Shown: piece after piece, positions 367 through 20,070 of the stretch
Numbering within the stretch: position 1 is the stretch's first letter
How the letters are laid out: each line of letters begins with the position of its first letter
IMG/VR virus record: IMGVR_UViG_3300036828_000221
Coordinates: 1 to 21,444 of that record
From: a virus
Length of the DNA: 21,444 nucleotides
Strand: one strand, 5' to 3'
Notes under the pieces: model-generated
The model's input: only the letters and a program-made list of their open reading frames with translations
The model's database searches: none
Told to the model about the DNA's origin: nothing
Position numbers and translations under genes: made by a program

Positions 367-393
367 CCACCGTAACTAGATTCGGTGGTGGTG
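367..393 (+). promoter_or_regulatory. Second GTAACTAGATT motif, inside a dyad ahead of terS
   Basis: The motif at 372-382 is flanked by an inverted repeat, CCACCG (367-372) and CGGTGG (383-388), so its AT-rich core would form the loop of a hairpin. Three successive GTG codons (385, 388, 391) follow at once. If TAGATT (377-382) is the -10 box, transcription would begin near the third GTG and the small terminase message would be nearly leaderless. Unit 2 does not have this arrangement: there the single motif lies about 90 bases upstream of the start. Confidence 0.45.
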
Positions 394-714
394 CCTCAGG
401 ATCCGCTCTTCGATCTGGACACCGGCCCTAAGCCGGTGAAGCGGATCCGCAAAGCAACGGACCGGACGGTGCGCGAGCTTCGCAAGCTGGGCCGCGTCGA
501 GCCGGCCGACACGTTGCTGATCGCCCTCTTGCGGACGTGTTCGGATCGGTGCGACGAGCTGCGCGGCGGTGAGGGCAAGGAGTACCACGAAGCCCAAGCG
601 CTACGGCTGACCGGCGAGCTAGAGGCGAGATTGCGGGGGGTCGGTGGGCCGGTGAGCGATGCTTTCGACCAGCTACTGGCTGCGGCTACGGGTCCCACCA
701 CGCCTAGCGACTGA
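391..714 (+). CDS. terS: Terminase small subunit (unit 1)
   Basis: Predicted DNA-recognition subunit of the packaging motor, 107 residues, highly charged and helical, with no recognisable catalytic site. The assignment rests on position directly before a clear large terminase and on size. GTG 391 is chosen because the unit 2 copy starts MPQDPLF; in-frame GTGs at 385 and 388 would add two residues. The protein is identical to the unit 2 copy, and all of the roughly sixteen base differences I can see are synonymous. Its last 56 bases overlap the start of the large terminase in another frame, and that overlap is almost invariant between the units. The usual alternative for a gene here would be an HNH nuclease, but no HNH motif is present. 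Confidence 0.8.
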   Translation: MPQDPLFDLDTGPKPVKRIRKATDRTVRELRKLGRVEPADTLLIALLRTCSDRCDELRGGEGKEYHEAQALRLTGELEARLRGVGGPVSDAFDQLLAAATGPTTPSD

Positions 715-2125
715 ACCGACGCCCGGGGTCGCCACCCTTGGCCCGGCGACCGACAAGGTCGGGGCCGCGCTTTTCGGCCGGCCGATGCAAGCGTGGCAGT
801 CCGCGGTTAACCGGGTCGCCGGTGAAGTCACCCCGACCGGCGAAATGGTCCACCCGCTGGTGGTGCTTCACGTGCCCCGCCGGGCCGGTAAGTCCGCCCT
901 CGCCCTCGCCCAGCTTTGCCGGCGGTGCCTGGGCCAGCCACGGTCTCAGTCGTGGTACACCGCGCAGACCGGCGGCGACGCGGGCCGCACGTTCCGCCGT
1001 GAATGGCTACCGATCCTCAGAGGTTGCGGGCTGGCCGGCGGACCCCGCCCGAAGCTGAAGGTCTCGCTCCGCGCGGGGTCGGAGTCTTTCGAGCTTCAGT
1101 CCCTGAACACCACCGTGACGTGCTTCCCACCGATCGAAGCCGCCCTACATGGGACGAACGTCGACCTGGCGGTGATCGATGAAGCCTGGGCGCACGACCT
1201 CGACGCCGGGGCCGGTGTCGAAATGGCGGTGTTCCCGGCGCAGCTCACCCGGCCCGGATCCCAAACATGGATTGTGTCGGCCGGCGGGACGATCGCGTCG
1301 ACGTGGTGGGACGGCTGGCTAGAACGCGGCGAGCAAGCCTTAGCGACCGGCGACCCGTCGATAGCGATCTTCGATTGGGGCGCCGACCCCGACGATCCCG
1401 AGTACGACCCGACCAGCCCGGCCACCTGGTGGACCGCCCACCCGGCTTTGGGCGACACGATCACCGAAGCGGCGATAGCCGCGGAGCTGGCCAGGTCGTC
1501 GACGGTGGCGGCTTTCGAACGGTCGGTGCTCAACGTTTGGCCCCGACCCCGCGCCCTGAAAACCGGTGTCGACCTCGCGGCTTGGGCGAGCTTGGCGGAT
1601 CTGGAAGTCACCGCGGCCCCGGCGGTGTTGGCTTTCGACGTCGCCGCCGATCGATCCTCCGCTTCGATGGCGACCGCCGGGGTCGCGCGCGACGGCCGGG
1701 TAGTGGTCGAAGTGGTCGACGACCGTTCCGGCACCGGCTGGATCGAACGCGAAACCAAAGCGTGGCGCCAAGCGAACCGCGCGGGCTTGGTGGTGGCCGA
1801 CGCCCTGAACGCCGGGACGATCGCCACCCGCCTAGAGCTGGCCGGGGTCGACGTGCTGCAAACGTCGGCCGGGCAAATGGCCAAAGCGTGCGCCGATCTG
1901 ATCGACCAGATCACTAACCGGACCGTCGCCCACCGGTCCCAGGCGATACTTGACGGTGCCCTACGTGGTGCCGGGCGACGCCCACTTGGGGACGGGTGGG
2001 CGTGGTCCCGGCGCAATAGTGACGGATCGATCGCCCCGCTCGTCGCCGTGACCTTGGCGGCTTGGGCCGCAAGGTCGACGCCCCGGATCCCGGCCCCGTT
2101 CGTGATAGTTGCCGACCGGAGGTAG
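659..2125 (+). CDS. terL: Terminase large subunit (unit 1)
   Basis: ATP-driven packaging motor and nuclease that cuts concatemers and fills proheads; 488 residues. The N-terminal ATPase has a Walker A motif PRRAGKS (residues 73-79), a Walker B strand with acidic pair AVIDE (D174, E175), and a SAGGT coupling motif near 207-211. The C-terminal half has the RNase H-like nuclease pattern: LAFD (D327), VVAD (D381) and a late Asp near GDGW (about 445). ATG 659 lies inside terS. It is preferred because the N-terminal stretch RVPPRLATEPT is conserved in unit 2 and typical of actinophage TerL; the next in-frame ATG (784) would remove it. The stop is followed immediately by a conserved small dyad and then the portal gene. 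Confidence 0.95.
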   Translation: MLSTSYWLRLRVPPRLATEPTPGVATLGPATDKVGAALFGRPMQAWQSAVNRVAGEVTPTGEMVHPLVVLHVPRRAGKSALALAQLCRRCLGQPRSQSWYTAQTGGDAGRTFRREWLPILRGCGLAGGPRPKLKVSLRAGSESFELQSLNTTVTCFPPIEAALHGTNVDLAVIDEAWAHDLDAGAGVEMAVFPAQLTRPGSQTWIVSAGGTIASTWWDGWLERGEQALATGDPSIAIFDWGADPDDPEYDPTSPATWWTAHPALGDTITEAAIAAELARSSTVAAFERSVLNVWPRPRALKTGVDLAAWASLADLEVTAAPAVLAFDVAADRSSASMATAGVARDGRVVVEVVDDRSGTGWIERETKAWRQANRAGLVVADALNAGTIATRLELAGVDVLQTSAGQMAKACADLIDQITNRTVAHRSQAILDGALRGAGRRPLGDGWAWSRRNSDGSIAPLVAVTLAAWAARSTPRIPAPFVIVADRR

Positions 2126-2139
2126 TTACTTCACAGTAA
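2126..2139. repeat. Conserved inverted repeat at the terL-portal junction
   Basis: A perfect dyad TTACT-TCAC-AGTAA starts on the base after the terL stop and is copied exactly, with its flanks, in unit 2 (16958-16971). It is AT-rich against a GC-rich background. The right arm runs into AAGGG, which can serve as the portal ribosome site, so folding could tune portal translation. As DNA it could be an operator. It has no T-tract and the stem is short, so a terminator is unlikely. Confidence 0.6.
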
Positions 2140-2146
2140 GGGCCTA

Positions 2147-3418
2147 GTGAAGCTCCGACTACGCCGCCGGTCCCGGGATATCGACGCGGCCGACAGTCCG
2201 CCCCAATGGCCGGTGCCGGCCGGCCCTCAGCACCGGCCGCGTATGCCGGACATGGGCGGCGGGTGGCTGGGCGGGCTTTCCAACATGGAACGTTCGTCGG
2301 CGATGGCGGTGCCGACGCTGGCCTATATCCGGGCTCAGCTCGCCGGTGGTGTCGCGTCGATGCCGCTGGAGCGGTACCGGACGAACACCGACACCGGTGA
2401 TGTGAAGCTCGACCCGGGCTGGTGCCAGAACCCCGACCCGGCGCCGGCTATCCCGTCGTCGGTGTTCTGGTCGTGGGTGATCGATGATCTGCTTTTCGAC
2501 GGCAAGAGCACGCTGATCGTGCTGGGCAGGGACTCGACGGGGTTCCCGGTGATGTTCCGCCGGGTCAAGCCCGGCCAGCTCACTTACGACCCGCTAACCC
2601 TTGCGTGGGGCACGATGTGGTTGAACACCGAAGTGAACTATCTCGGGTTCGTGGTCCCGCCTACCGACGTCGTGGTGATCGACGGACCGCACGAAGGGAT
2701 CTGCAACTACGGGGCGGCGACGATCCAAGCCGCTTTGGATCTGGAAACCTCAGCGGCGACCGCGGCCGGCGAACCGTTGCCGAACATCGACTTGCACCAG
2801 ACCGGCGGCGAACCCTTGTCGACTCTCGCCGCCCAGGAGCTGGTCGACGACTGGAAGGGCGCGCGGCAACAGGGCGCGACCGCGTACACCCCGCAGAACC
2901 TTGACGCCCGCGTGCTCGGGTGGTCATCCGCGGAGCTTCAGATGATCGAAGCCCGCCAGTACATGGCGACCCAGCTCGCCCGCATGACCGGTGTCAACCC
3001 GACGCTGGTGTCCGCCGCTATGGGCAGCTCGTCGAGCTACGTGTACACGAACCAGGCGGACTACCGTGCCGCGTTCCTAGACGATTGCCTTGATAGCTAC
3101 CTCCGGGCGATCGAAGGGCGGCTATCGGCGACCGACGTGACCCCGCGCGGCCAGTACGTCCAGTTCGACCGTGACGCGTTCACCCGCTTGACCTTGCTTC
3201 AGCGTGTCGACGTGATGGTGGGCGCCCTGAAGTCCGGCGCCCCGCCGGCCCTGGTCGACCAGCTCGCCACGACCCTAAATCTGGATATCACCATGCCCGA
3301 CGAGCCGGACCCGACCGCACTTCCGACCGACACGCCGGCCCCGCCGCCCTCTAGCGCGGTGCCGGCCCCGCCGCCGCCCCGCCCGACACCCGCCACGCCG
3401 GCACCGGCCGCACCGTAG
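2147..3418 (+). CDS. Portal protein, HK97-like (unit 1)
   Basis: Dodecameric ring at the capsid vertex through which DNA enters and leaves; 423 residues, usual for HK97-type portals of small actinophages. The portal signature is in the core: AVPTLAYIRAQLAGGVASMPLERY near residues 51-74, the central FWSWVIDDLLFDGKSTL region, and the C-terminal helical block containing IEARQYMATQLARMTGVNP and SSSSYVYTNQADYR. The last 40 or so residues are a Pro/Ala-rich tail after the folded domain. GTG 2147 follows AAGGG by four bases. The second half is nearly identical to the unit 2 protein, whereas the first 45 residues differ clearly. Confidence 0.9.
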   Translation: MKLRLRRRSRDIDAADSPPQWPVPAGPQHRPRMPDMGGGWLGGLSNMERSSAMAVPTLAYIRAQLAGGVASMPLERYRTNTDTGDVKLDPGWCQNPDPAPAIPSSVFWSWVIDDLLFDGKSTLIVLGRDSTGFPVMFRRVKPGQLTYDPLTLAWGTMWLNTEVNYLGFVVPPTDVVVIDGPHEGICNYGAATIQAALDLETSAATAAGEPLPNIDLHQTGGEPLSTLAAQELVDDWKGARQQGATAYTPQNLDARVLGWSSAELQMIEARQYMATQLARMTGVNPTLVSAAMGSSSSYVYTNQADYRAAFLDDCLDSYLRAIEGRLSATDVTPRGQYVQFDRDAFTRLTLLQRVDVMVGALKSGAPPALVDQLATTLNLDITMPDEPDPTALPTDTPAPPPSSAVPAPPPPRPTPATPAPAAP

Positions 3419-3434
3419 AGAAGGGCGAGAACAT

Positions 3435-5249
3435 ATGTCTGAGATACGTTTGGCCGCGCCGGCCGCTGGTATCCGTGCCGACCGCCCGTCGCGGACTATC
3501 AGCGGACCGGTGGTCCCTTGGGACGTGTTCGCCGCGGTGAGCACCGGCCAGATCGTGGCTTTCGCCCCGGGGTCGGTGATCCTGGGCGAACGGTCGAAAC
3601 TGGTACTCGATCACGACCCGGCCCAGCCGGTCGCCGTGTTCGTGTCCGCCAATGACACCGGCACCGAACTGGAAGCCACGTTTAGGGTGCCGCCCGGCCC
3701 GGCCGGCGACCAGATCCTGGCCGACGCCCAAGAGGGCTTACGCGACGGGTTCAGCGTGGGCGTTGACGTGATCACGTCGGAGGACCGCGCGGAGGGCACC
3801 TACGTGACCGCCGCGCGGGGCCGGCACGTCGCTTTGTTGTCTGAACCGGCTTTCGACGCCGCCCGGGTGGCTTCAGTGATCGCCGCCGCACCAGTACCGC
3901 CAGCCGCACCGACCGAAGGAGAACCCGCCGTGTCCGATGTTCCGACCCCAATCACCGTTAGCTTCTCGGGACCGCTCGCCGTGGCCACGCTGGCTACCGA
4001 CGACCTGCCCGGCGGCGGCGGTGATGACGAAGTGACACCCGCAACCCCGGCGGCTGGTGCGGTGATCCCGACCGTGGCCGGCGCGCGTGCACCGGTACCG
4101 CTCGCGGCTTCAGCCGCCCGGGTGACCGACCCTTATCCGTACTCGGTGCCCCAATGGATGGGCGGGCCGTCATTCGTGATGGACGCGTACAAGTCGATGG
4201 AAGATCCGGGCTCGATCGAAGCCGACCGGTGGCGGCGATCCCTGGTCGCCCTCTCAGACCCTGCCGTGCTCCGGGCGGGTGTCGCCCGCTTCGCGAACGC
4301 GATGCCGCCGACGATCCAAGCCGCCACCGGTACGACGACCACCGAACCGGCCCTGGTGCCCGACCGGTGGCTACCAGAGCGGTACGTGCCGCTACGTGGG
4401 GCGAAGGCGCCGCTCTACACCGCCCTGGCCAAGTATCCGACCCCCGACTTCACCACGCTTCAGGTACCCCGCACCGCTACTGAGACCGGACTATCTGGCC
4501 GGCCGGTCGACGAAGTGACCCCGATCACGCCGGGCGACATCACCACCGATAGCGACACAATCTCGATCGACGAAGTCGAAGGCGCGTACCTCTTCAGCCG
4601 GAAGTTGCTTCTCGGGTCCAACCCGCAGATCGACCGGATCGCACTCGACGCGTTGGATCGTGCCTGGTTGGCCGACGTCGAAGGCCGCGCGGTGACCTAC
4701 TTCCAAGGCGCCAACGTGTCGACAGCCGTGGGCGCCACGTACGCGGACGGTCCCGGCTACATCGCCGCCCTTCGTGGCCAGCTCGCCCGGATGGCCGCGT
4801 CGACGCTCTACATGGGCACGGCGATCGTGCCGGCGGCGAAGGAATACATCGCTTTGGCGGAAGCCGACGACGGGTCCGGTCGGCCGCTACTGCCCTACGG
4901 TCCGCAGATCAACGCCCCGGGCACCAGCTCGGCCGGCTACGGCACCGTGAGCGTTCAGGGTGTGCCCGCGTTTCCGGGGCCGTATATGCCGGCGGATAAG
5001 ACGTTCGTTCTGGATCAGTCGCTTGACGCGGCGGTGTGCTTCGCGACGCCGGTGATGAATTTCCGGCTGGAATGGACCACCGACACGACCACCGGCGGAA
5101 ACGTCAAAGTGCTGAAGCTGGTGAAGTACTCGGGCGTGGGGTTCTGGTCTCAGTACGTCGGCGGGGTCGTGCTCATGACGAATAGCTCGCCGATCGCCGA
5201 CGAGACCGGCGATCCTGCCAGCTCGAGCGGATCCGGCCGGAAGCGTTAG
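3435..5249 (+). CDS. Fused prohead protease - major capsid protein (unit 1)
   Basis: Single 604-residue chain joining a capsid maturation protease to an HK97-fold shell protein. Residues 1-150 are protease-like (S78 type): candidate catalytic His60 in LVLDHDP, Ser107 in DGFSVGVD, then the typical end GRHVALLSEPAFDAARV. A Pro/Ala-rich linker follows. Residues 166-250 form a spacer that may act as the scaffolding (delta) region. The capsid fold runs from about 310 to the end, with SRKLLLGSNPQIDRIALDAL and CFATPVMNFRLEW as landmarks. ATG 3435 follows AAGGGCGA. An in-frame ribosome site and GTG inside the gene (3916-3932) could give a separate 439-residue capsid protein. Small actinophages with this fusion are known. 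Confidence 0.92.
   Translation: MSEIRLAAPAAGIRADRPSRTISGPVVPWDVFAAVSTGQIVAFAPGSVILGERSKLVLDHDPAQPVAVFVSANDTGTELEATFRVPPGPAGDQILADAQEGLRDGFSVGVDVITSEDRAEGTYVTAARGRHVALLSEPAFDAARVASVIAAAPVPPAAPTEGEPAVSDVPTPITVSFSGPLAVATLATDDLPGGGGDDEVTPATPAAGAVIPTVAGARAPVPLAASAARVTDPYPYSVPQWMGGPSFVMDAYKSMEDPGSIEADRWRRSLVALSDPAVLRAGVARFANAMPPTIQAATGTTTTEPALVPDRWLPERYVPLRGAKAPLYTALAKYPTPDFTTLQVPRTATETGLSGRPVDEVTPITPGDITTDSDTISIDEVEGAYLFSRKLLLGSNPQIDRIALDALDRAWLADVEGRAVTYFQGANVSTAVGATYADGPGYIAALRGQLARMAASTLYMGTAIVPAAKEYIALAEADDGSGRPLLPYGPQINAPGTSSAGYGTVSVQGVPAFPGPYMPADKTFVLDQSLDAAVCFATPVMNFRLEWTTDTTTGGNVKVLKLVKYSGVGFWSQYVGGVVLMTNSSPIADETGDPASSSGSGRKR
3916..3932 (+). promoter_or_regulatory. Internal in-frame ribosome site and GTG start in the fusion gene
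   Basis: AAGGAGA at 3916-3922 is followed eight bases after GGAG by GTG at 3930, in the frame of the fusion gene (codon 166). It sits exactly at the junction between protease and capsid parts. Unit 2 has the same arrangement at 18758-18774 although surrounding sequence differs. The simplest reading is a second translation start that makes free capsid protein in excess over protease-bearing chains. The motif also encodes TEGEP in a linker, so chance conservation through the protein must be excluded. Confidence 0.65.
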
Positions 5250-11828: not shown

Positions 11829-12008
11829 GTGCTCGACGACCGGTCGCTTGGCCGGGCACGTCGACTGATCCTGTTCTTGCTAGGGGTTGCGGTGATCGTC
11901 GACGCCCTCGCGGACGGCGAGCACCTAGGGCAGCTCGTCGTCGGCTTGGTCCTGGTTGGGTTAGTGCCCGTCGACGACCTGCTGGGCCGCATCGGCCGGC
12001 GGACCTGA
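11829..12008 (+). CDS. Holin-like membrane protein
   Basis: A 59-residue protein with a basic N-terminus (RSLGRARR) and two hydrophobic segments, LILFLLGVAVIVDAL and LGQLVVGLVLVGLVPVDDLL, ending in basic residues. Small size, two membrane segments and position directly after the amidase make a holin likely. GTG 11829 is one base after the endolysin stop. ATG 11802 is an alternative in-frame start inside the endolysin gene and would add nine residues, perhaps giving a dual-start pair. It is the last gene of the rightward late operon; the next gene converges on it. Confidence 0.7.
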   Translation: MLDDRSLGRARRLILFLLGVAVIVDALADGEHLGQLVVGLVLVGLVPVDDLLGRIGRRT

Positions 12009-12029
12009 CGACGCAAGCCACCACCTGGT

Positions 12030-12078
12030 GTAACTGGGCCAGATTGGGGGTTGCGCCGCTCCTGGGGCGTTCTAGCCT
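12030..12078 (+). promoter_or_regulatory. Possible promoter with motif-like site ahead of stem-loop 1
   Basis: TTGCGC (12051-12056) and TAGCCT (12073-12078) are separated by 16 bases and fit a weak sigma-70-type promoter; a transcript would begin near 12085 and read into stem-loop 1. Immediately upstream, GTAACT (12030-12035) and AGATT (12041-12045) resemble the recurring GTAACTRGATT motif interrupted by GGGCC. No ORF follows on this strand, so a promoter here would make a non-coding RNA. The evidence is box similarity only. Confidence 0.35.
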
Positions 12079-12094
12079 GGTCTGCGGGTAAACG

Positions 12095-12171
12095 CCCTGA
12101 TCCCGACCGGCGCTATCTGACCTCACGGTGCTCCGAAACCAACACCGCAGACACCCCGGACGGGATCAGGG
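12095..12171. repeat. Stem-loop 1 downstream of the leftward gene
   Basis: Two 16-base arms, CCCTGATCCCGACCGG (12095-12110) and CCGGACGGGATCAGGG (12156-12171), pair with one mismatch around a 45-base interior that itself has a CGGTG/CACCG hairpin. The element lies between the convergent holin gene and the leftward gene, so a bidirectional terminator is possible, but there is no T-tract and the loop is large. A very similar element at 12663-12736 has arms with the same GCCCTGA and GATCAGGG ends and the same interior size. It is a paralogous structure of unknown role, as RNA or as DNA. Confidence 0.65.
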
Positions 12172-12179
12172 ACCACTAG

Positions 12180-12509
12180 CTACCCGTTTTCGTACAGCTC
12201 GATCAGTGCCCGACCTTCCGCGGGGGTGATCATCAGCTCGACGCGGATCCGGGCGGTGTCCCACGGTGTCAAGCCCTCAGCGATCGCGGCGAGTAGCGCC
12301 GATCGGCCGGTGTCGTCGTCGAAGTCGATGTTTTCGCCGGCCACCAGGCACACCCCGGGCAACAGCTCGACCAGTCGCGCGCCGATCGGCAGCATCGCGT
12401 GATCGGATACCTCCTGGGCGACCGCGTGCCAGTTGTCAAGTAGTGCCTGCTCTTGGGCGACCTGGTGCCAGTCCTGGCCCGCGCGGTCGGTCTCCCGATC
12501 GTCCGACAT
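12180..12509 (-). CDS. Leftward hypothetical protein (only minus-strand gene)
   Basis: A 109-residue acidic protein starting MSDDRETDRAGQDWHQVAQEQALLDNW and ending EGRALIELYENG. The start is set by a strong AGGAGG seven bases upstream; the frame is open further (to 12749) but that part reads as a His run from a CAC-repeat leader and is probably untranslated. I recognise no family: an N-terminal helical part is followed by a small alpha/beta part (GARLVELLPGVCLVAGENIDF, LTPWDTARIRVELM). It lacks a clear helix-turn-helix or catalytic motif. It faces all other genes and is bracketed by stem-loops 1 and 2, which suggests an independently regulated accessory gene (moron), an immunity factor or a regulator. 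Confidence 0.7.
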   Translation of the reverse strand: MSDDRETDRAGQDWHQVAQEQALLDNWHAVAQEVSDHAMLPIGARLVELLPGVCLVAGENIDFDDDTGRSALLAAIAEGLTPWDTARIRVELMITPAEGRALIELYENG

Positions 12510-12662
12510 GTCGACCTCCTGGTGGTGGTGGTGGTGCGGGTGGCGTGCCCGGCTTTCCCTTCCGGGCACACTCCCAATCTTCCCGGGCGATGACCCTAAG
12601 CGATCGCAAAGATAGGGGCGCGTAGCTCGCTGGTCCCGATAAGTGTGGTTATCTGCAATCAC

Positions 12663-12736
12663 GCCCTGACCAGCACTTTCGCCGGTCGACGCTCGCGGAC
12701 CCAAATACGGCCCGCGCGATAGGTGCTGATCAGGGC
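12663..12736. repeat. Stem-loop 2 upstream of the leftward gene
   Basis: Arms GCCCTGACCAGCAC (12663-12676) and GTGCTGATCAGGGC (12723-12736) pair over 14 bases with one C-A mismatch. The 46-base interior has its own CGCGG/CCGCG hairpin. Total length, arm ends, one mismatch and inner hairpin match stem-loop 1 (12095-12171), and both are followed by ACCA and preceded by TCTGC. It lies in the 5' leader region of the leftward gene. The arm ends look like a tRNA acceptor stem, but no D, anticodon or T arm can be drawn. Confidence 0.65.
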
Positions 12737-12753
12737 ACCAGGTCGTCAACGCA

Positions 12754-12770
12754 TTAGTGCGGTGTACTAA
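12754..12770. promoter_or_regulatory. Dyad TTAGT-N7-ACTAA
   Basis: A perfect five-base inverted repeat in an AT-rich pocket just right of stem-loop 2. Separation of arm centres is 12 bases, near one helical turn, as in operators. The pocket (TACTAAACAAT) could also supply a -10 box on either strand. No protein can be assigned. Confidence 0.35.
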
Positions 12771-12773
12771 ACA

Positions 12774-12784
12774 ATCCAGTTACC
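12774..12784 (-). promoter_or_regulatory. GTAACTGGATT motif, minus strand
   Basis: The reverse strand reads GTAACTGGATT, one base different from the motif at 40, 372 and 15127. It points toward the leftward gene. Its GGTAAC end is the left arm of the 12779-12801 dyad, so a dimeric protein could bind both. Confidence 0.45.
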
Positions 12785-12801
12785 GCGACGCCGGTGGTAA
12801 C
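12779..12801. promoter_or_regulatory. Operator-like dyad GTTACC-N11-GGTAAC
   Basis: Six-base perfect arms spaced 17 bases between arm centres form a 23-base dyad. The arms are the GTAAC core of the recurring motif in opposite orientations, which ties this site to the copies near the terminase genes. Position between two divergent genes fits an operator. Confidence 0.4.
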
Positions 12802-12851
12802 GGGCCGACAGAACGGCAACAAGTCCAAGTCCAAAGCGGGTCGATCTAGGG

Positions 12852-12866
12852 CCTAACGCGGTTAGG
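12852..12866. promoter_or_regulatory. Dyad CCTAAC-GCG-GTTAGG
   Basis: A perfect six-base inverted repeat with a three-base centre, about 110 bases before the TTG start of the winged-helix gene. It partly overlaps the next hairpin, so the two could exclude each other in RNA. A regulator-binding site is plausible; none can be named. Confidence 0.4.
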
Positions 12867-12896
12867 GGGTCCACCACCACCAAGTGGGAACCCCCT
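12864..12896 (+). promoter_or_regulatory. Leader hairpin upstream of the winged-helix gene
   Basis: AGGGGGT (12864-12870) pairs with ACCCCCT (12890-12896), continued by CCAC/GTGG with a GA bulge and a CAC-repeat loop. There is no U-tract after it, so it looks more like a leader or attenuator structure than a finished terminator. A hairpin with the same five-C/five-G core and a GA bulge lies within the gene at 13624-13654. Confidence 0.4.
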
Positions 12897-12973
12897 ACCG
12901 TGCGCCACACCAATCCCGGTTGCACGCCGGGAAAGGGACTAGTGAAACCACCTTCAGGAGAGGCGGAAGCACG

Positions 12974-13801
12974 TTGCCGAAGAAGATACCCACCGGCGGG
13001 GCCGGGACGCGCGATCCCGATCCCAACCAGCCGCGACTTCCCTACCGCCGGCCTAAGACGATCACCACGATCGGGGCCGGCGATGCGCCGTACCTCAGCC
13101 GCGACGAACGCGACCAGCTCCTGGCAATGACCCCGCGCCAGCTTCACCCGGTGCTCGACGCCCACTTCACCGTGGGCCGCTCGGGCGAAGTGTGGGCGTC
13201 GCGCGACGAGCTGGCCGCGCGCGCCGGTGTGCCGATACGGAGCTTCAACCGTCACCGGACGCGGCTAGTCGAGCTGGGCGTGCTCGCCCTGGTGTGGGGA
13301 CCAGCCCGGGCACGTGGGGACCAGCCCGGCCGGAACGCCCGATACCGGCTGATCCGACCAGCCGACATCGCCGCCCCGATCGAATCCACCGAACCGGTAG
13401 AGCAAGTGGACCAACCCGCCCTCGCGCGGTGCCGGTGGTGTCTGGCCACCGACCACGACCATGCCGACTGCCCGAACCGCGCCCTGACGATCGTCCGCTC
13501 CAAGCTCGACGCCGAAGAAGAAACGCGGGCCACAATGGCCCACGATCGGATAGACGAACATGGGCCACTATGGCCCACGATCGACGCTCAAACGTGGGCC
13601 ACTATGGCCCCCATAGCCTCTAAAGAACCCCCTGACGTAGTCAGAGGGGGTTCTACTGATTCAAGTGCCTCGCGCGCGAGCCAAGACCACGATCCCGCCC
13701 CGCCCGAAACGGGCGGGATCGCAACCCCTGAACCAACGGAACGCGAAGCTGACGACGCATGGCTAGCCAAGTTCCGCCGCGACAACGGCTTACCCGCATG
13801 A
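12974..13801 (+). CDS. Winged-helix DNA-binding protein, probable replication initiator
   Basis: A 275-residue protein from TTG 12974, chosen because AGGAGAGG ends nine bases upstream; an in-frame GTG at 12884 would add 30 residues but has no ribosome site. Residues 75-127 look like a winged helix-turn-helix (VWASRDELAARAGVPIRSFNRHRTRLVELGVL, then the wing RNARYRL). Residues 153-166 form a zinc-knuckle-like C-x2-C-H-C cluster (CRWCLATDHDHADC). The rest is acidic and low-complexity, with a helical end. Out-of-frame DNA repeats lie inside the gene (13294-13329 and 13527-13610), as in lambda O and plasmid rep genes. Its position beside the methyltransferase in the non-structural segment fits replication. 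A transcription regulator is the main alternative. Confidence 0.65.
   Translation: MPKKIPTGGAGTRDPDPNQPRLPYRRPKTITTIGAGDAPYLSRDERDQLLAMTPRQLHPVLDAHFTVGRSGEVWASRDELAARAGVPIRSFNRHRTRLVELGVLALVWGPARARGDQPGRNARYRLIRPADIAAPIESTEPVEQVDQPALARCRWCLATDHDHADCPNRALTIVRSKLDAEEETRATMAHDRIDEHGPLWPTIDAQTWATMAPIASKEPPDVVRGGSTDSSASRASQDHDPAPPETGGIATPEPTEREADDAWLAKFRRDNGLPA
13294..13329. repeat. Two 16-base direct repeats, 20-base period
   Basis: GTGGGGACCAGCCCGG occurs at 13294-13309 and again, without change, at 13314-13329. The 20-base period is not a multiple of three, so the copies encode different residues (VWGPAR against RGDQPG). That points to pressure on DNA rather than protein. They lie just after the recognition-helix coding region. 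Confidence 0.65.
13527..13610. repeat. Three palindromic iterons inside the rep-type gene
   Basis: GGGCCA-CWA-TGGCCC occurs at 13527-13541 (CAA centre), 13562-13576 and 13596-13610 (CTA centres). Spacing is 35 and 34 bases. Copies 1 and 2 continue identically through CACGATCG. Copy 2 is read in a different frame from 1 and 3 (HGPLWP against ATMA), so repetition is not a protein repeat. Iterons within an initiator gene are the hallmark of origins such as lambda ori; strong hairpins follow at 13624 and 13699. This is the best replication-origin candidate in the window. Confidence 0.65.
13624..13654. repeat. Strong hairpin next to the iterons
   Basis: AGAACCCCC (13624-13632) pairs with GGGGGTTCT (13646-13654), continued by TGAC/GTCA with a GA bulge and a three-base loop. 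It lies 14 bases after the last iteron, inside the coding frame. It could stall transcription or, as single-stranded DNA, serve as a priming or initiation structure. No T-tract follows. Confidence 0.5.
13699..13717. repeat. GC-rich hairpin CCCGCCCG-AAA-CGGGCGGG
   Basis: Eight perfect G-C pairs with an AAA loop near the end of the winged-helix gene. Very stable, but built only of G and C in a GC-rich genome and encoding a low-complexity linker, so chance is more likely here than for the previous hairpin. Confidence 0.35.
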
Positions 13802-15225: not shown

Positions 15226-15549
15226 GTGCCGCAGGATCCGCTCTTCGATCTGGACACCGGTCCTAAGCCGGTGAAGCGGATCCGCAAGGCGACTGATCGG
15301 ACGGTGCGCGAGCTTCGCAAGCTGGGCCGCGTAGAGCCGGCCGACACGTTGCTGATCGCTCTCTTGCGGACGTGCTCGGATCGGTGCGACGAGCTTCGCG
15401 GCGGTGAGGGCAAGGAGTACCACGAAGCTCAAGCCCTACGGCTGACCGGCGAGCTTGAGGCCAGATTGCGGGGGGTCGGTGGGCCGGTGAGCGATGCTTT
15501 CGACCAGCTACTGGCAGCGGCTACGGGTCCCACCACGCCTAGCGACTGA
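15226..15549 (+). CDS. terS: Terminase small subunit (unit 2)
   Basis: A 107-residue protein identical to the unit 1 copy at 391-714. Base differences are scattered and, as far as I can count, all silent, so the protein is under strong constraint. GTG 15226 follows AGAGG too closely for a good ribosome site, so expression may depend on the leader. Because the two units encode the same recognition subunit, either could in principle package both DNAs. It overlaps terL by 56 bases in another frame. Confidence 0.8.
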   Translation: MPQDPLFDLDTGPKPVKRIRKATDRTVRELRKLGRVEPADTLLIALLRTCSDRCDELRGGEGKEYHEAQALRLTGELEARLRGVGGPVSDAFDQLLAAATGPTTPSD

Positions 15550-16957
15550 ACCGACCCGGGGCGCCCGCACGTTGGGCACCGCGGCGGACAACGTCGGGGC
15601 GGCCCTGTTCGGCCGGCCGATGCAAACCTGGCAGTCCGCGGTCAACCGGGTCGCCGGCGAACTGACCGACGACGGCGAAATGCTCCACCCGCTGGTCGTG
15701 TTGCACGTGCCGCGCCGGGCCGGTAAGACGGCGATCGCCCTAACCCAGTTGACCCGCCGAGTGTTGGGCCAGCCACGGTCTCAGTCTTGGTATACGGCGC
15801 AGACCGGCGGCGACGCGGGCCGGACGTTCCGCCGGGAGTGGCTACCGATCCTCAGGGGTTGCGGTCTCGCGGGCCCGAACGGCCGGCTGAAGGTGTCGCT
15901 TCGCGCGGGGAGCGAATCGTTCGAGCTGCGCGGCCTGAACACGACGGTTACGTGTTTCCCGCCGATCGAAGCCGCCTTGCACGGCACGAACGTCGACCTG
16001 GCGGTCATCGATGAAGCCTGGTCGCATGACCTGGCCGCCGGGGCCGGTGTCGAAATGGCGGTGTTCCCGGCGCAGCTCACCCGCCCGCAATCCCAAACCT
16101 GGATTGTGTCGGCCGGCGGGACGATCGCCAGCACGTGGTGGGACGGCTGGCTAGAACGCGGCGAGCAGGCCTTGGAGTCGGGCGACCCGTCGATAGCGAT
16201 ATTCGACTGGGGTGCCGACCCCGACGACCCCGCTTACGACCCGACCAGCCCGGCCACGTGGTGGACAGCACACCCCGCGCTGGGCGACACGATCACAGAG
16301 CAGGCGATCGCCGCCGAGTTGGCCCGGTCGTCGAGCATCGCCGCTTTCGAGCGGTCGGTGCTGAACGTGTGGCCCCGGCCCCGCGCCCTGAAGACCGGGA
16401 TCGACTTGTCGGCTTGGGCGGACCTCGCGGACCTCGACGTTCGCGCGACCCCGGCGGTGTTGGCTTTCGATGTCGCCGCCGACCGTAGCTCGGCGAGCAT
16501 GGCGACCGCCGCGGTCGCGCGCGACGGGCGGGTCGTGGTCGAAGTGGTCGACGACCGTTCCGGTACCGGCTGGATCGAACGCGAAGCCAGGGCGTGGCGC
16601 GCGGCGAACCGGGCCGGTCTGATCGTCGCGGACTCGCTGAACGCCGGCACGATCGCGACCCGGTTGGAGCTGGCCGGGCTCGACGTGCTCCAAACGTCCG
16701 CCGGGCAGATGGCCCGCGCGTGCGCCGGGCTGATCGACGAGATCACCAATAGGTCTATCGCCCACCGATCCCAGGCCATACTCGACGGCGCGCTACATGG
16801 CGCCGGCCGGCGCCCGCTCGGGGACGGGTGGGCCTGGTCGCGGCGCAACAGCGAAGGCTCAATAGCCCCGCTGGTCGCCGTCACCCTGGCCGCCTGGGCG
16901 GCCCGGTCGACGCCCCGCCTGCCGGCCCCGTTCGTCATAGTTGCCGACCGCAGGTAG
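15494..16957 (+). CDS. terL: Terminase large subunit (unit 2)
   Basis: A 487-residue packaging ATPase-nuclease, one residue shorter than the unit 1 copy (fewer residues in the GGPRPKLK stretch, here PNGRLK). Walker A PRRAGKT, Walker B AVIDE, the SAGGT motif and nuclease Asp residues in LAFD and IVAD are all kept, so it looks functional. Changes concentrate at residues 21-35 and 58-63 and in scattered surface positions. The stop is followed by the same dyad as in unit 1. Confidence 0.95.
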   Translation: MLSTSYWQRLRVPPRLATEPTRGARTLGTAADNVGAALFGRPMQTWQSAVNRVAGELTDDGEMLHPLVVLHVPRRAGKTAIALTQLTRRVLGQPRSQSWYTAQTGGDAGRTFRREWLPILRGCGLAGPNGRLKVSLRAGSESFELRGLNTTVTCFPPIEAALHGTNVDLAVIDEAWSHDLAAGAGVEMAVFPAQLTRPQSQTWIVSAGGTIASTWWDGWLERGEQALESGDPSIAIFDWGADPDDPAYDPTSPATWWTAHPALGDTITEQAIAAELARSSSIAAFERSVLNVWPRPRALKTGIDLSAWADLADLDVRATPAVLAFDVAADRSSASMATAAVARDGRVVVEVVDDRSGTGWIEREARAWRAANRAGLIVADSLNAGTIATRLELAGLDVLQTSAGQMARACAGLIDEITNRSIAHRSQAILDGALHGAGRRPLGDGWAWSRRNSEGSIAPLVAVTLAAWAARSTPRLPAPFVIVADRR

Positions 16958-16971
16958 TTACTTCACAGTAA
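16958..16971. repeat. Conserved terL-portal inverted repeat (unit 2)
   Basis: TTACT-TCAC-AGTAA, identical to 2126-2139, again starting right after the terL stop and leading into an AGGGG ribosome site for the portal. The bases after it differ between units, so conservation is local to the dyad. Confidence 0.6.
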
Positions 16972-16977
16972 GGGGCG

Positions 16978-18252
16978 GTGAGATTGTGGCGAAGGTCGCG
17001 CGACATTGACGCAGCGGGCGACCCGGCTACCGCCCCAGCCGGCCCGGTCTACCGAAACCGGTCGTTCGATCCGGGCCAAGTCGGCTGGCCCCTGAGCGGG
17101 TTCGGGTCGATCGACCGGGGTTCCGCGATGCGGGTACCGACGTTGGCCTATATCCGCGGGCAGCTCGCCGGGGGTGTCGCATCGATGCCGCTTGAGCGGT
17201 ACCGGACGAACACCGACACCGGAGATATCAAGCTCGACCCTGGCTGGTGTCAGAACCCCGACCCGGCGCCGACCGTGCCCAGTTCGGTGTTCTGGTCGTG
17301 GGTGATCGATGACCTGTTCTTCGCCGGTAAGTCCACGCTGATCGTGTTGGGCCGCGATGCGACCGGGTTCCCGGTGATGTTCCGCCGGGTGATGCCAGGC
17401 CAGTTGACTTACGACCCGGCGATGCTGGCTTGGGGTACCCAGTGGCAGAACACCGAGATTTACTATCTCGGGTTTCAGGTCCCGCCGACCGACGTGGTCG
17501 TGATCGACGGCCCCCACGAGGGCGTGTGCAACTACGGGGGTTCGACGATCCAAGCCGCCCTCGACCTGGAAACCGCGGCGGGGACCGCCGCCAGCGAACC
17601 GTTGCCGAACATCGATTTGCACCAGACCGGCGGCGAGCCGATGGCAACCCCCGAAGCCCAAGCCCTGGTCGACAGTTGGCGGACCGCGCGACGGCTCGGC
17701 GCTACCGCGTACACCCCGCAGAACCTTGACGCCAGGGTGCTCGGCTGGTCGTCGGCAGAACTTCAGATGATCGAAGCCCGCCAGTACATGGCGACCCAGC
17801 TCGCCCGCATGGCCGGCGTCAACCCGACCTTGGTGTCCGCCGCGATGGGTTCCAGCTCGTCCTACGTGTACACGAACCAGGCCGACTACCGGGCCGCGTT
17901 CCTAGATGACTGCTTGGATTCGTACCTTCGGGCGATCGAAGGCCGCCTATCGGCGACCGACGTGACACCGCGCGGCCAGTACGTGCAGTTCGACCGTGAC
18001 GCGTTCACCAGGCTCACCCTGTTGCAACGCGTTGACGTGATGGTCGGGGCACTCAAGTCCGGCGCCCCGCCCGCCCTGGTCAACCAGCTTGCTACCGCCC
18101 TCGACCTCGATATCACGATGCCCGGCGAACCCGACCCGAACGCCCTGCCGACCGACCAGCCCGCCCCGCCGCCGCCCGCCGCGATCCCGGTCCCGAATCC
18201 GGCACCCGCTACACCGGCCCCAGCACCGGCGCCGGTCCCGGCCGCACCGTAA
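16978..18252 (+). CDS. Portal protein, HK97-like (unit 2)
   Basis: A 424-residue counterpart of 2147-3418. The region from the NLDARVLGWSSAELQM segment through RVDVMVGALKSGAPPALV is the same in both apart from one visible substitution (T to A in ARMAGVNP). The N-terminal 45 residues and the Pro/Ala tail differ. A GTG start at 16978 follows AGGGG closely. Portals that share this contact surface could support mixed particles. Confidence 0.9.
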   Translation: MRLWRRSRDIDAAGDPATAPAGPVYRNRSFDPGQVGWPLSGFGSIDRGSAMRVPTLAYIRGQLAGGVASMPLERYRTNTDTGDIKLDPGWCQNPDPAPTVPSSVFWSWVIDDLFFAGKSTLIVLGRDATGFPVMFRRVMPGQLTYDPAMLAWGTQWQNTEIYYLGFQVPPTDVVVIDGPHEGVCNYGGSTIQAALDLETAAGTAASEPLPNIDLHQTGGEPMATPEAQALVDSWRTARRLGATAYTPQNLDARVLGWSSAELQMIEARQYMATQLARMAGVNPTLVSAAMGSSSSYVYTNQADYRAAFLDDCLDSYLRAIEGRLSATDVTPRGQYVQFDRDAFTRLTLLQRVDVMVGALKSGAPPALVNQLATALDLDITMPGEPDPNALPTDQPAPPPPAAIPVPNPAPATPAPAPAPVPAAP

Positions 18253-18261
18253 GGAGCTTCG

Positions 18262-20070
18262 ATGCAGATACGTCTGGCCGCGCCGACCGCTGGTATTCGA
18301 GCTGACCGCCAAGCCCGGACTATCAGCGGCCCGGTAGTCCCCTGGGACGTTTACGCCGCAGTGTCGACCGGCCAGACCGTGGCTTTCGCCCGGGGGTCGA
18401 TCATTCTCGGCGAGCGATCCAAACTGGTCCTCGACCACGACCCCGCCCAGCCGGTCGCCGTGTTCGTGGCGGCGACCGACACCGGCGAATGGCTGGAAGC
18501 GACGTTCAGGGTTCCGCCCGGGCCCGCGGGCGACCAGGTCCTGGCCGACGCCCAGGAAGGCCTCAGGGACGGGTTCAGTGTCGGTGTCGACGTGCTGACC
18601 GCGGAGGACCGCCCCGAAGGCACCTATGTGACTGCCGCGCGGGGCCGGCACGTCGCCTTGTTGTCTGAACCGGCTTTCGACGCGGCCCGGGTCGCGTCGG
18701 TGACCGCCGCCGCACCCGACCCGCCCGCACCAGCACCAGCAGTAATCGCACCCACCGAAGGAGAACCCGCCGTGTCTGACACATCGAACGTGACCACTGT
18801 CCGGTTTGACGGCCCGCTTACCGTCGCCGCGGCTTCGATCGCTACCGACGACCTGCCCGGCGGCGGCGGCGACGATCCGGTCACCCCGACCGCGGCGGCG
18901 ATGGCACCGCTACCGGTGATGGCGGGCGCACCGGCCCGGGTTCAGGACGCCTACCCGTACCAGCTCGGCGGCCCCCATTCGATGCTCCGCGACGCGTGGC
19001 TATCGCATGAGGGCGACCCTGAGGCGGGCGCCCGGCTGGTCAAAGCCCAAAGGTTCAACGCCGACCCCCGCCAGATCCAGGCCGCCACTATCGCGATGGC
19101 CCGCGCGGCGTCCCGGCACGCCCAGGTGATGGCCGCCCCGGGTGACACCGGGAGCATGGCGCCGATCATCCCGCCCGGCTACCGCCCCGACTTCTGGACC
19201 CCGCTTATCGCCTACGAGTCCCCGGTCTATAACGCCGCGACCAAGAGCCCGATCAGCGACTTCACGCCGTTCACGATCCCCCGCGAAGTGTCCCGGGCCG
19301 GCCTGTCGGGAACCCCGGCCGACGAGGTAACCCCGCCGGCCGCCGGCACGATCGCCGCGACCGTCGACACCGTCACCCCCGAAGTCGTGTACGGAAGTTA
19401 TGAATTTTCTAGAGCTCTGGCGATGTCGTCGAACCCGGCTATCGACATGATCGCCAACAACGCCCTCGACGAAGAATGGTTGAAGGACATCGAAACCCGG
19501 GCGATCGCCTTCTGGTCGACCGCCGCGAATCACACCGCCGCCGCGGTCAACTACACCAACGGGGCCGGGTACATCTCCATCGTCCGCCAACAGATGGCCG
19601 CCCAGCGGGTCACCCGCCACGCCCCGACCCGCAACGTGGTCACCCCCACCGCCGAGTACTCCGCGGCGGTCGGCGCCGACGATGCAGCCGACCGGCCGCT
19701 GCTCGGATGGGACGGGGCAACCAACATGTACGGCCCCGGCACTCAGGGCAACGCCGCTTCTGACGCCACGATCCTCGGTGTGCCGACCCTGCCCGAAGGC
19801 GCCGCGCCGCTCACCGCCAACACCAGTTTCTTGTTCACCGAAGGCGACGCGGTGTGCTTCGCAACGCCGGTGATGAACTTCCGGATCGAATACAACGGGA
19901 ACAACCCGCTGGTGATCACCCTGGTCAAATATTCGGGGGTCGCGTTCTGGACCCGCCAAGTGCTCGGGGTACGCATGATGACCAACGGAACCCCTATTTC
20001 GTTCGACGATCCGGGCGGCGGCGAAACCAGCTCGACGAGCGGTAGCCGGGCCGGGTCGACCCGCAAGTAA
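18262..20070 (+). CDS. Fused prohead protease - major capsid protein (unit 2)
   Basis: A 602-residue fusion. The protease part (1-150) is close to that of unit 1, with His59 in LVLDHDP and Ser106 in DGFSVGVD. After the internal GTG the spacer begins to differ, and the capsid domain is strongly diverged (for example SRALAMSSNPAIDMIANNAL against SRKLLLGSNPQIDRIALDAL), though CFATPVMNFR and LVKYSGV remain. ATG 18262 follows AAGGAG. A stop-start overlap (TAATG) couples it to the connector. The abrupt change in similarity inside one chain suggests domain-level exchange. Confidence 0.92.
   Translation: MQIRLAAPTAGIRADRQARTISGPVVPWDVYAAVSTGQTVAFARGSIILGERSKLVLDHDPAQPVAVFVAATDTGEWLEATFRVPPGPAGDQVLADAQEGLRDGFSVGVDVLTAEDRPEGTYVTAARGRHVALLSEPAFDAARVASVTAAAPDPPAPAPAVIAPTEGEPAVSDTSNVTTVRFDGPLTVAAASIATDDLPGGGGDDPVTPTAAAMAPLPVMAGAPARVQDAYPYQLGGPHSMLRDAWLSHEGDPEAGARLVKAQRFNADPRQIQAATIAMARAASRHAQVMAAPGDTGSMAPIIPPGYRPDFWTPLIAYESPVYNAATKSPISDFTPFTIPREVSRAGLSGTPADEVTPPAAGTIAATVDTVTPEVVYGSYEFSRALAMSSNPAIDMIANNALDEEWLKDIETRAIAFWSTAANHTAAAVNYTNGAGYISIVRQQMAAQRVTRHAPTRNVVTPTAEYSAAVGADDAADRPLLGWDGATNMYGPGTQGNAASDATILGVPTLPEGAAPLTANTSFLFTEGDAVCFATPVMNFRIEYNGNNPLVITLVKYSGVAFWTRQVLGVRMMTNGTPISFDDPGGGETSSTSGSRAGSTRK
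18758..18774 (+). promoter_or_regulatory. Internal in-frame ribosome site and GTG start (unit 2)
   Basis: AAGGAG (18758-18763), eight bases, then GTG 18772 at codon 171 of the fusion. Spacing and frame match the unit 1 site at 3916-3932 although the linker just upstream has five extra codons here. A 432-residue capsid protein would result. Confidence 0.65.

Follow-up and report, generated by a model that had tools for sequence, protein, structure and literature searches.

Comparison of three related small actinophage genomes identifies a 77-nt element (hereafter, A; positions 12095-12171) as a conserved structured noncoding element, recognized by its fold, its conservation and its pairing in relatives. 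We infer that A acts as RNA, with the plus strand as the preferred one. The evidence that A is a conserved RNA is good but not overwhelming, because only three sequences are available and the shuffle control described below was not beaten.

The window, that is, the whole stretch of DNA analyzed, is an entire IMG/VR virus record of 21,444 bases with 67% GC. Its content is that of a small siphophage, an RRH1-like actinophage of roughly 15 kb. The terminase is ~33% identical to those of Rhodococcus phage RRH1, Gordonia phage Schiebs and Arthrobacter phage Decurro, and the ~15 kb gene order is common to this record and a group of environmental contigs. Searches of phage records and genome contigs with the 109-aa gene described below or the terminase yielded no relatives beyond these RRH1-like terminase matches (~33%), and a search for neighbors via the replication gene returned none. 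The terminase-portal-capsid module is present in tandem duplicate (391-4054 and 15226-18899); the two copies are 82% identical at the DNA level over 3.7 kb, with the longest exact match being at most 53 bp, and appear to belong to two different, related phages joined together, either as real tandem prophages or through an assembly join.

The rightward late genes (plus strand) end with an amidase endolysin followed by a 68-aa ORF, reaching position 12008. Beyond them lie A, a leftward gene for a 109-aa protein, a second hairpin (hereafter, B) and a replication-initiator-like gene, in that order. The 109-aa gene (12180-12509, minus strand) is preceded by a GGAGG ribosome-binding site. Homologs were found in two other contigs, L217 and L218, and, in the opposite orientation (plus strand) and with 31% identity, in a third, L124. 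The protein could not be assigned to any PHROGs, Pfam or PADLOC family, and its predicted structure (pLDDT 77) had no PDB match. The 5' leader of this gene (12535-12570, minus strand) contains a GTGCCCGG/CCGGGCAC hairpin, which in L217 reads CTGGCCCGG/CCGGGCCAG, a compensatory change; a CCA repeat follows the hairpin just before the ribosome-binding site. The initial annotation had placed stem-loops of 77 and 74 nt on either side of the minus-strand ORF, each with one mismatch and an inner hairpin within an interior of 45 or 46 nt, preceded by TCTGC and followed by ACCA; arm listing, folding and the sequence itself bear out this description at 12095-12171 and 12663-12736.

The arms of A are 16 nt long and form 15 pairs with one A-A mismatch, enclosing the 45-nt interior with its inner hairpin. 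The outer stem consists of 11 bp, the A-A mismatch and 4 bp, and is followed by UCUG/CAGA and CGGUG/CACCG stems, the whole folding into a single long bulged hairpin in which the asymmetric internal loop is conserved and the apical loop is variable. Because the record is 67% GC, long-armed inverted repeats are common in it: 14 have arms of at least 12 nt, compared to 4-8 in shuffled sequences, and most are located inside genes. Compared to dinucleotide shuffles, the fold of A has z = -5.36 on the plus strand and -6.48 on the minus strand, with none of 200 shuffles being as stable, and just 18 (plus) or 5 (minus) of the record's 797 GC-matched windows of 91 nt fold equally well. In line with the earlier failure to recognize a known family, Rfam gave no gathering-level match in the window and nothing up to an E-value of 5 within 11950-12980. 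The GGG-ACCA end of A is suggestive of a tRNA or a tRNA-like element, but this identity was rejected given that the fold is one bulged hairpin and that ARAGORN reported none; the tRNA/tmRNA search of the window was likewise negative.

The only close relatives of the 109-aa gene are those in L217 and L218, and A adjoins the gene in both. A search of 39 related records with the covariance model of A (R1) detected no convincing copy besides these two; the interior-core pattern matched seven loci in viral contigs, of which only L217 and L218 score as A, and a scan of viral contigs with the broader pattern CCCTGATC-N45-75-GATCAGGG was uninformative among the matches listed. A is 96% identical in L217 and 85% in L218, compared to only 56% and 58%, respectively, at the fourfold-degenerate sites of the neighboring 109-aa gene (p = 1e-15 and 3e-7, simple binomial). 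If the L217-L218 synonymous rate (74%) is taken as the reference instead, conservation exceeds it only weakly (p = 0.03 for the whole element and 0.17 for the interior). Farther than 28 nt upstream of A, the identity of the L218 DNA falls to 55-59%.

The 24 pairs of A on the plus strand are kept through two compensatory changes, CG to GC and AU to GC, along with U-G and G-U wobbles, so that all 72 cells in the three sequences hold standard pairs, whereas sliding the partners by 1-3 columns reduces this fraction to 31-44%. Column shuffles reached the observed covariation in 132 of 500 cases, so with three sequences the control is not beaten. The CCCTG/CAGGG arm ends are retained in all three phages and, within the interior, UAUCUG, CCUCACGGUGC and CGCAGACACCCCGGA are invariant save one indel in the three sequences; the 1-nt indels in A among the relatives argue against protein coding. 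A covariance model and a survey of relatives had been proposed as a check on the earlier suggestion of a small RNA family: for A, the small-RNA reading is supported by the paired replacements, within the limits of the shuffle control, by an interior conserved well above synonymous sites of the adjacent gene, and by a promoter-like site upstream.

This putative promoter, TTGCGC-N16-TAGCCT (12051-12078, plus strand), ends 16 nt before A, and its predicted start, at approximately position 12085, is 10 nt before A. It is the only match to TTG-N15-18-TANNNT on both strands of the 1.1 kb region 11901-13000, with ~0.19 matches expected per strand; a stricter scan for E. coli-type promoters reported no match at this site. 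The site is identical in L217; L218 keeps the -10 hexamer as TAGGGT but not the -35 box, and the sequence around the -10 hexamer, GGGCGTTCTAG, is identical in all three phages. The three wobbles in A are all G-U on the plus strand and would read as A-C on the minus strand, although the latter has extra pairs and is the more stable (alifold energy of -43, compared to -37 for the plus strand). From the wobbles and the tentatively predicted promoter, we prefer the plus strand as the functional one.

The best explanation for A, although a tentative one, is that a short noncoding RNA is transcribed rightward at the convergent junction, with A as its 5' end, and has an antisense or interfering role, or one in binding a host factor. 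The rightward transcript would start ~10 nt upstream of A, from TTGCGC-N16-TAGCCT. The outer stem would provide stability and would be free to covary, whereas the conserved internal loop, CUAUCUGA..CCUCA opposite CACC, would be the recognition part. Such a transcript would oppose the 3' end of the 109-aa gene and so would control the latter in cis, as an antisense RNA or through transcription interference; alternatively, its target could be a host factor that it binds. No clear 3' end for the plus-strand transcript is discernible in the sequence. The OOP-type antisense RNA of phage lambda is short and is made opposite the 3' end of a regulatory gene that converges on it. In its length and in opposing the 3' end of a convergently oriented gene, the proposed A transcript resembles this RNA; however, OOP ends at a canonical terminator, and A has none.

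A may instead be a terminator at the convergent junction, ending the leftward 109-aa mRNA and perhaps the rightward late operon too, which we consider possible, if short of likely. A is located between convergent genes, with the hairpin beginning ~9 nt past the stop codon of the 109-aa gene and being strong on both strands, and in L124, a simple GC-rich hairpin occupies the homologous place, before the convergent integrase of that phage. In position and in having a hairpin in both directions, A matches the intrinsic phage terminators of convergent junctions, but these carry a U-tract directly after the hairpin. The mycobacterial polymerase requires a U-tract for termination, and neither strand of A has a proper one: the tail following A on the minus strand is a weak (C/T)GTTT in all three phages (TGTTTTC in L218), and a terminator scan reported none at A, nor at B. 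Furthermore, the 45-nt interior with its conserved core would be superfluous for a terminator, and the conservation upstream of A would be left unexplained. Overall, the two readings are close, with the conserved interior and the upstream block appearing to favor the small RNA, and the junction position together with the simple hairpin in L124 appearing to favor the terminator.

Element B (74 nt, 12663-12736, strand not assigned) is characterized by its fold and by the conservation of its left arm in L217. Its arms of 14 nt form 13 pairs with one C-A mismatch on the plus strand (a G-U wobble on the minus strand) around a 46-nt interior with an inner hairpin. The stability of the fold is moderate, with z = -3.4 (plus) and -3.9 (minus) against dinucleotide shuffles, and 80 (plus) or 14 (minus) of 1361 GC-matched windows fold equally well. 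The left arm and the 25 nt upstream are identical in L217, the contig of which ends within B; searches for B homologs by operator pattern and by DNA recovered only this truncated copy. Just before B lies an operator-like palindrome, GATAA-N6-TTATC (12639-12654), which in L217 is extended into a perfect GCAGATAA/TTATCTGC. Another palindrome, TTAGT-N7-ACTAA (12754-12770), separates B from the replication gene, the leader of which forms a strong hairpin, TAGGGGGT-CCAC/GTGGGAACCCCCTA (12864-12899).

B is best regarded, on present sequence comparisons, as an independent hairpin among the regulatory sequences that precede the replication gene, and it need not share the function of A. It is unlikely that A and B represent a single element present twice and serving a shared function, be it an RNA family, as originally envisaged, or paired protein-binding sites. 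The outer arm CCCTGA/TCAGGG is common to both, its CCCTG/CAGGG portion is among the features that A retains in the relatives, and GATCAGGG occurs in the record only twice, once in A and once in B. However, the best local alignment of the two spans only 13 columns (GATCAGGG-ACCA), that is, the 8-base arm end and ACCA, and is matched by 12.4% of shuffles; in addition, model R1, which was built from A, fails to find B, and the conserved interior motif of A is missing from B.

Similarly improbable is that A and B act as DNA, either as cruciforms or as protein-binding palindromes, in replication or packaging. The replication gene is near, and conservation of a stem cannot separate DNA from RNA, but a conserved asymmetric internal loop would be unusual in a DNA site, and a more usual kind of origin is suggested by three 27-nt direct repeats with internal GGGCCAC-ATGGCCC palindromes at 13522-13617, inside the replication-initiator-like gene. 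These repeats are a candidate iteron-type origin, for which the iteron-type origin inside the O gene of phage lambda provides a parallel.

Structured RNAs of comparable size are known from other phages. The putL and putR RNAs of HK022 are ~70 nt long, number two per genome and are located downstream of early promoters, putL directly so (PMC9378689). A and B are similar to the put elements in size, number and place, but put consists of two adjacent stem-loops and its copies share sequence, whereas A is one long bulged hairpin and B is dissimilar to it; moreover, put functions in factor-free antitermination through the zinc-binding domain of the RNAP beta' subunit, a role that would be hypothetical for A. 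By this analogy, A could be a protein-free RNA regulator of transcription (through antitermination or polymerase binding) of a different architecture, located where a rightward transcript begins in actinophages with minimal genomes and no lysogeny module, although we consider this very improbable. Small noncoding RNAs, with no function assigned, have been described in actinophages including D29, L5, StarStuff and WC1 (PMC5712189, PMC10986025). They are similar to A in being noncoding and in residing in actinophages, but the best-studied of them comes from a transcribed region of ~500 bp at the genome end, far larger than A. Under the favored small-RNA reading, A is thus a candidate new RNA of a kind already known from phages.

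The comparison with L124 locates a mosaic junction, TGTAACT (12029-12035), to the left of which the sequence matches L124 (the 68-aa ORF is 92% identical) and to the right of which it matches L217. At this place, L124 carries a short hairpin, a leftward integrase, an attP-like sequence resembling a tRNA 3' end, a leftward ORF for a putative HTH repressor, and an excisionase, followed by the plus-strand homolog of the 109-aa gene and a replication gene. The tRNA-like sequence, GGGTTCGAGTCCCTCCCCCGGAGCCA (6985-7012 of L124), is flanked by the integrase on one side and the putative repressor on the other and is likely the attP core. By its gene content, L124 is a temperate relative with a lysogeny module at this position, a module that the lineage of the window appears to have replaced or lost. 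Because the switch in homology lies ~60 bp outside A, A and B do not appear to be the edges of this change.

Least probable of all is that the 109-aa gene sits in a cassette delimited by A and B that is either mobile, as the initial annotation had suggested along with recombination sites, or subject to site-specific inversion: the homolog in L124 is in reversed orientation and the region was swapped as a module between lineages, but the left junction is outside A, L124 has a different lysogeny module instead of an empty site and lacks A-like flanks, its homolog is only 31% identical, which makes the reversal either ancient or a separate event, and no recombinase gene was recognized in the window. 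A search with the actinobacterial dif consensus likewise found no site scoring above 17/28 in the window, with the best five all outside this region.

Should A prove to be a genuine small RNA, it would be a structured RNA not yet registered, in tailed phages whose genomes (~15 kb) rank, as a group, among the smallest known and in which each noncoding stretch is costly, and its covariance model is ready for immediate searching. If A is only an elaborate terminator, it would be ordinary. Under either reading, the comparison locates the point at which lysis and replication modules have been exchanged and at which a temperate relative has its lysogeny module.
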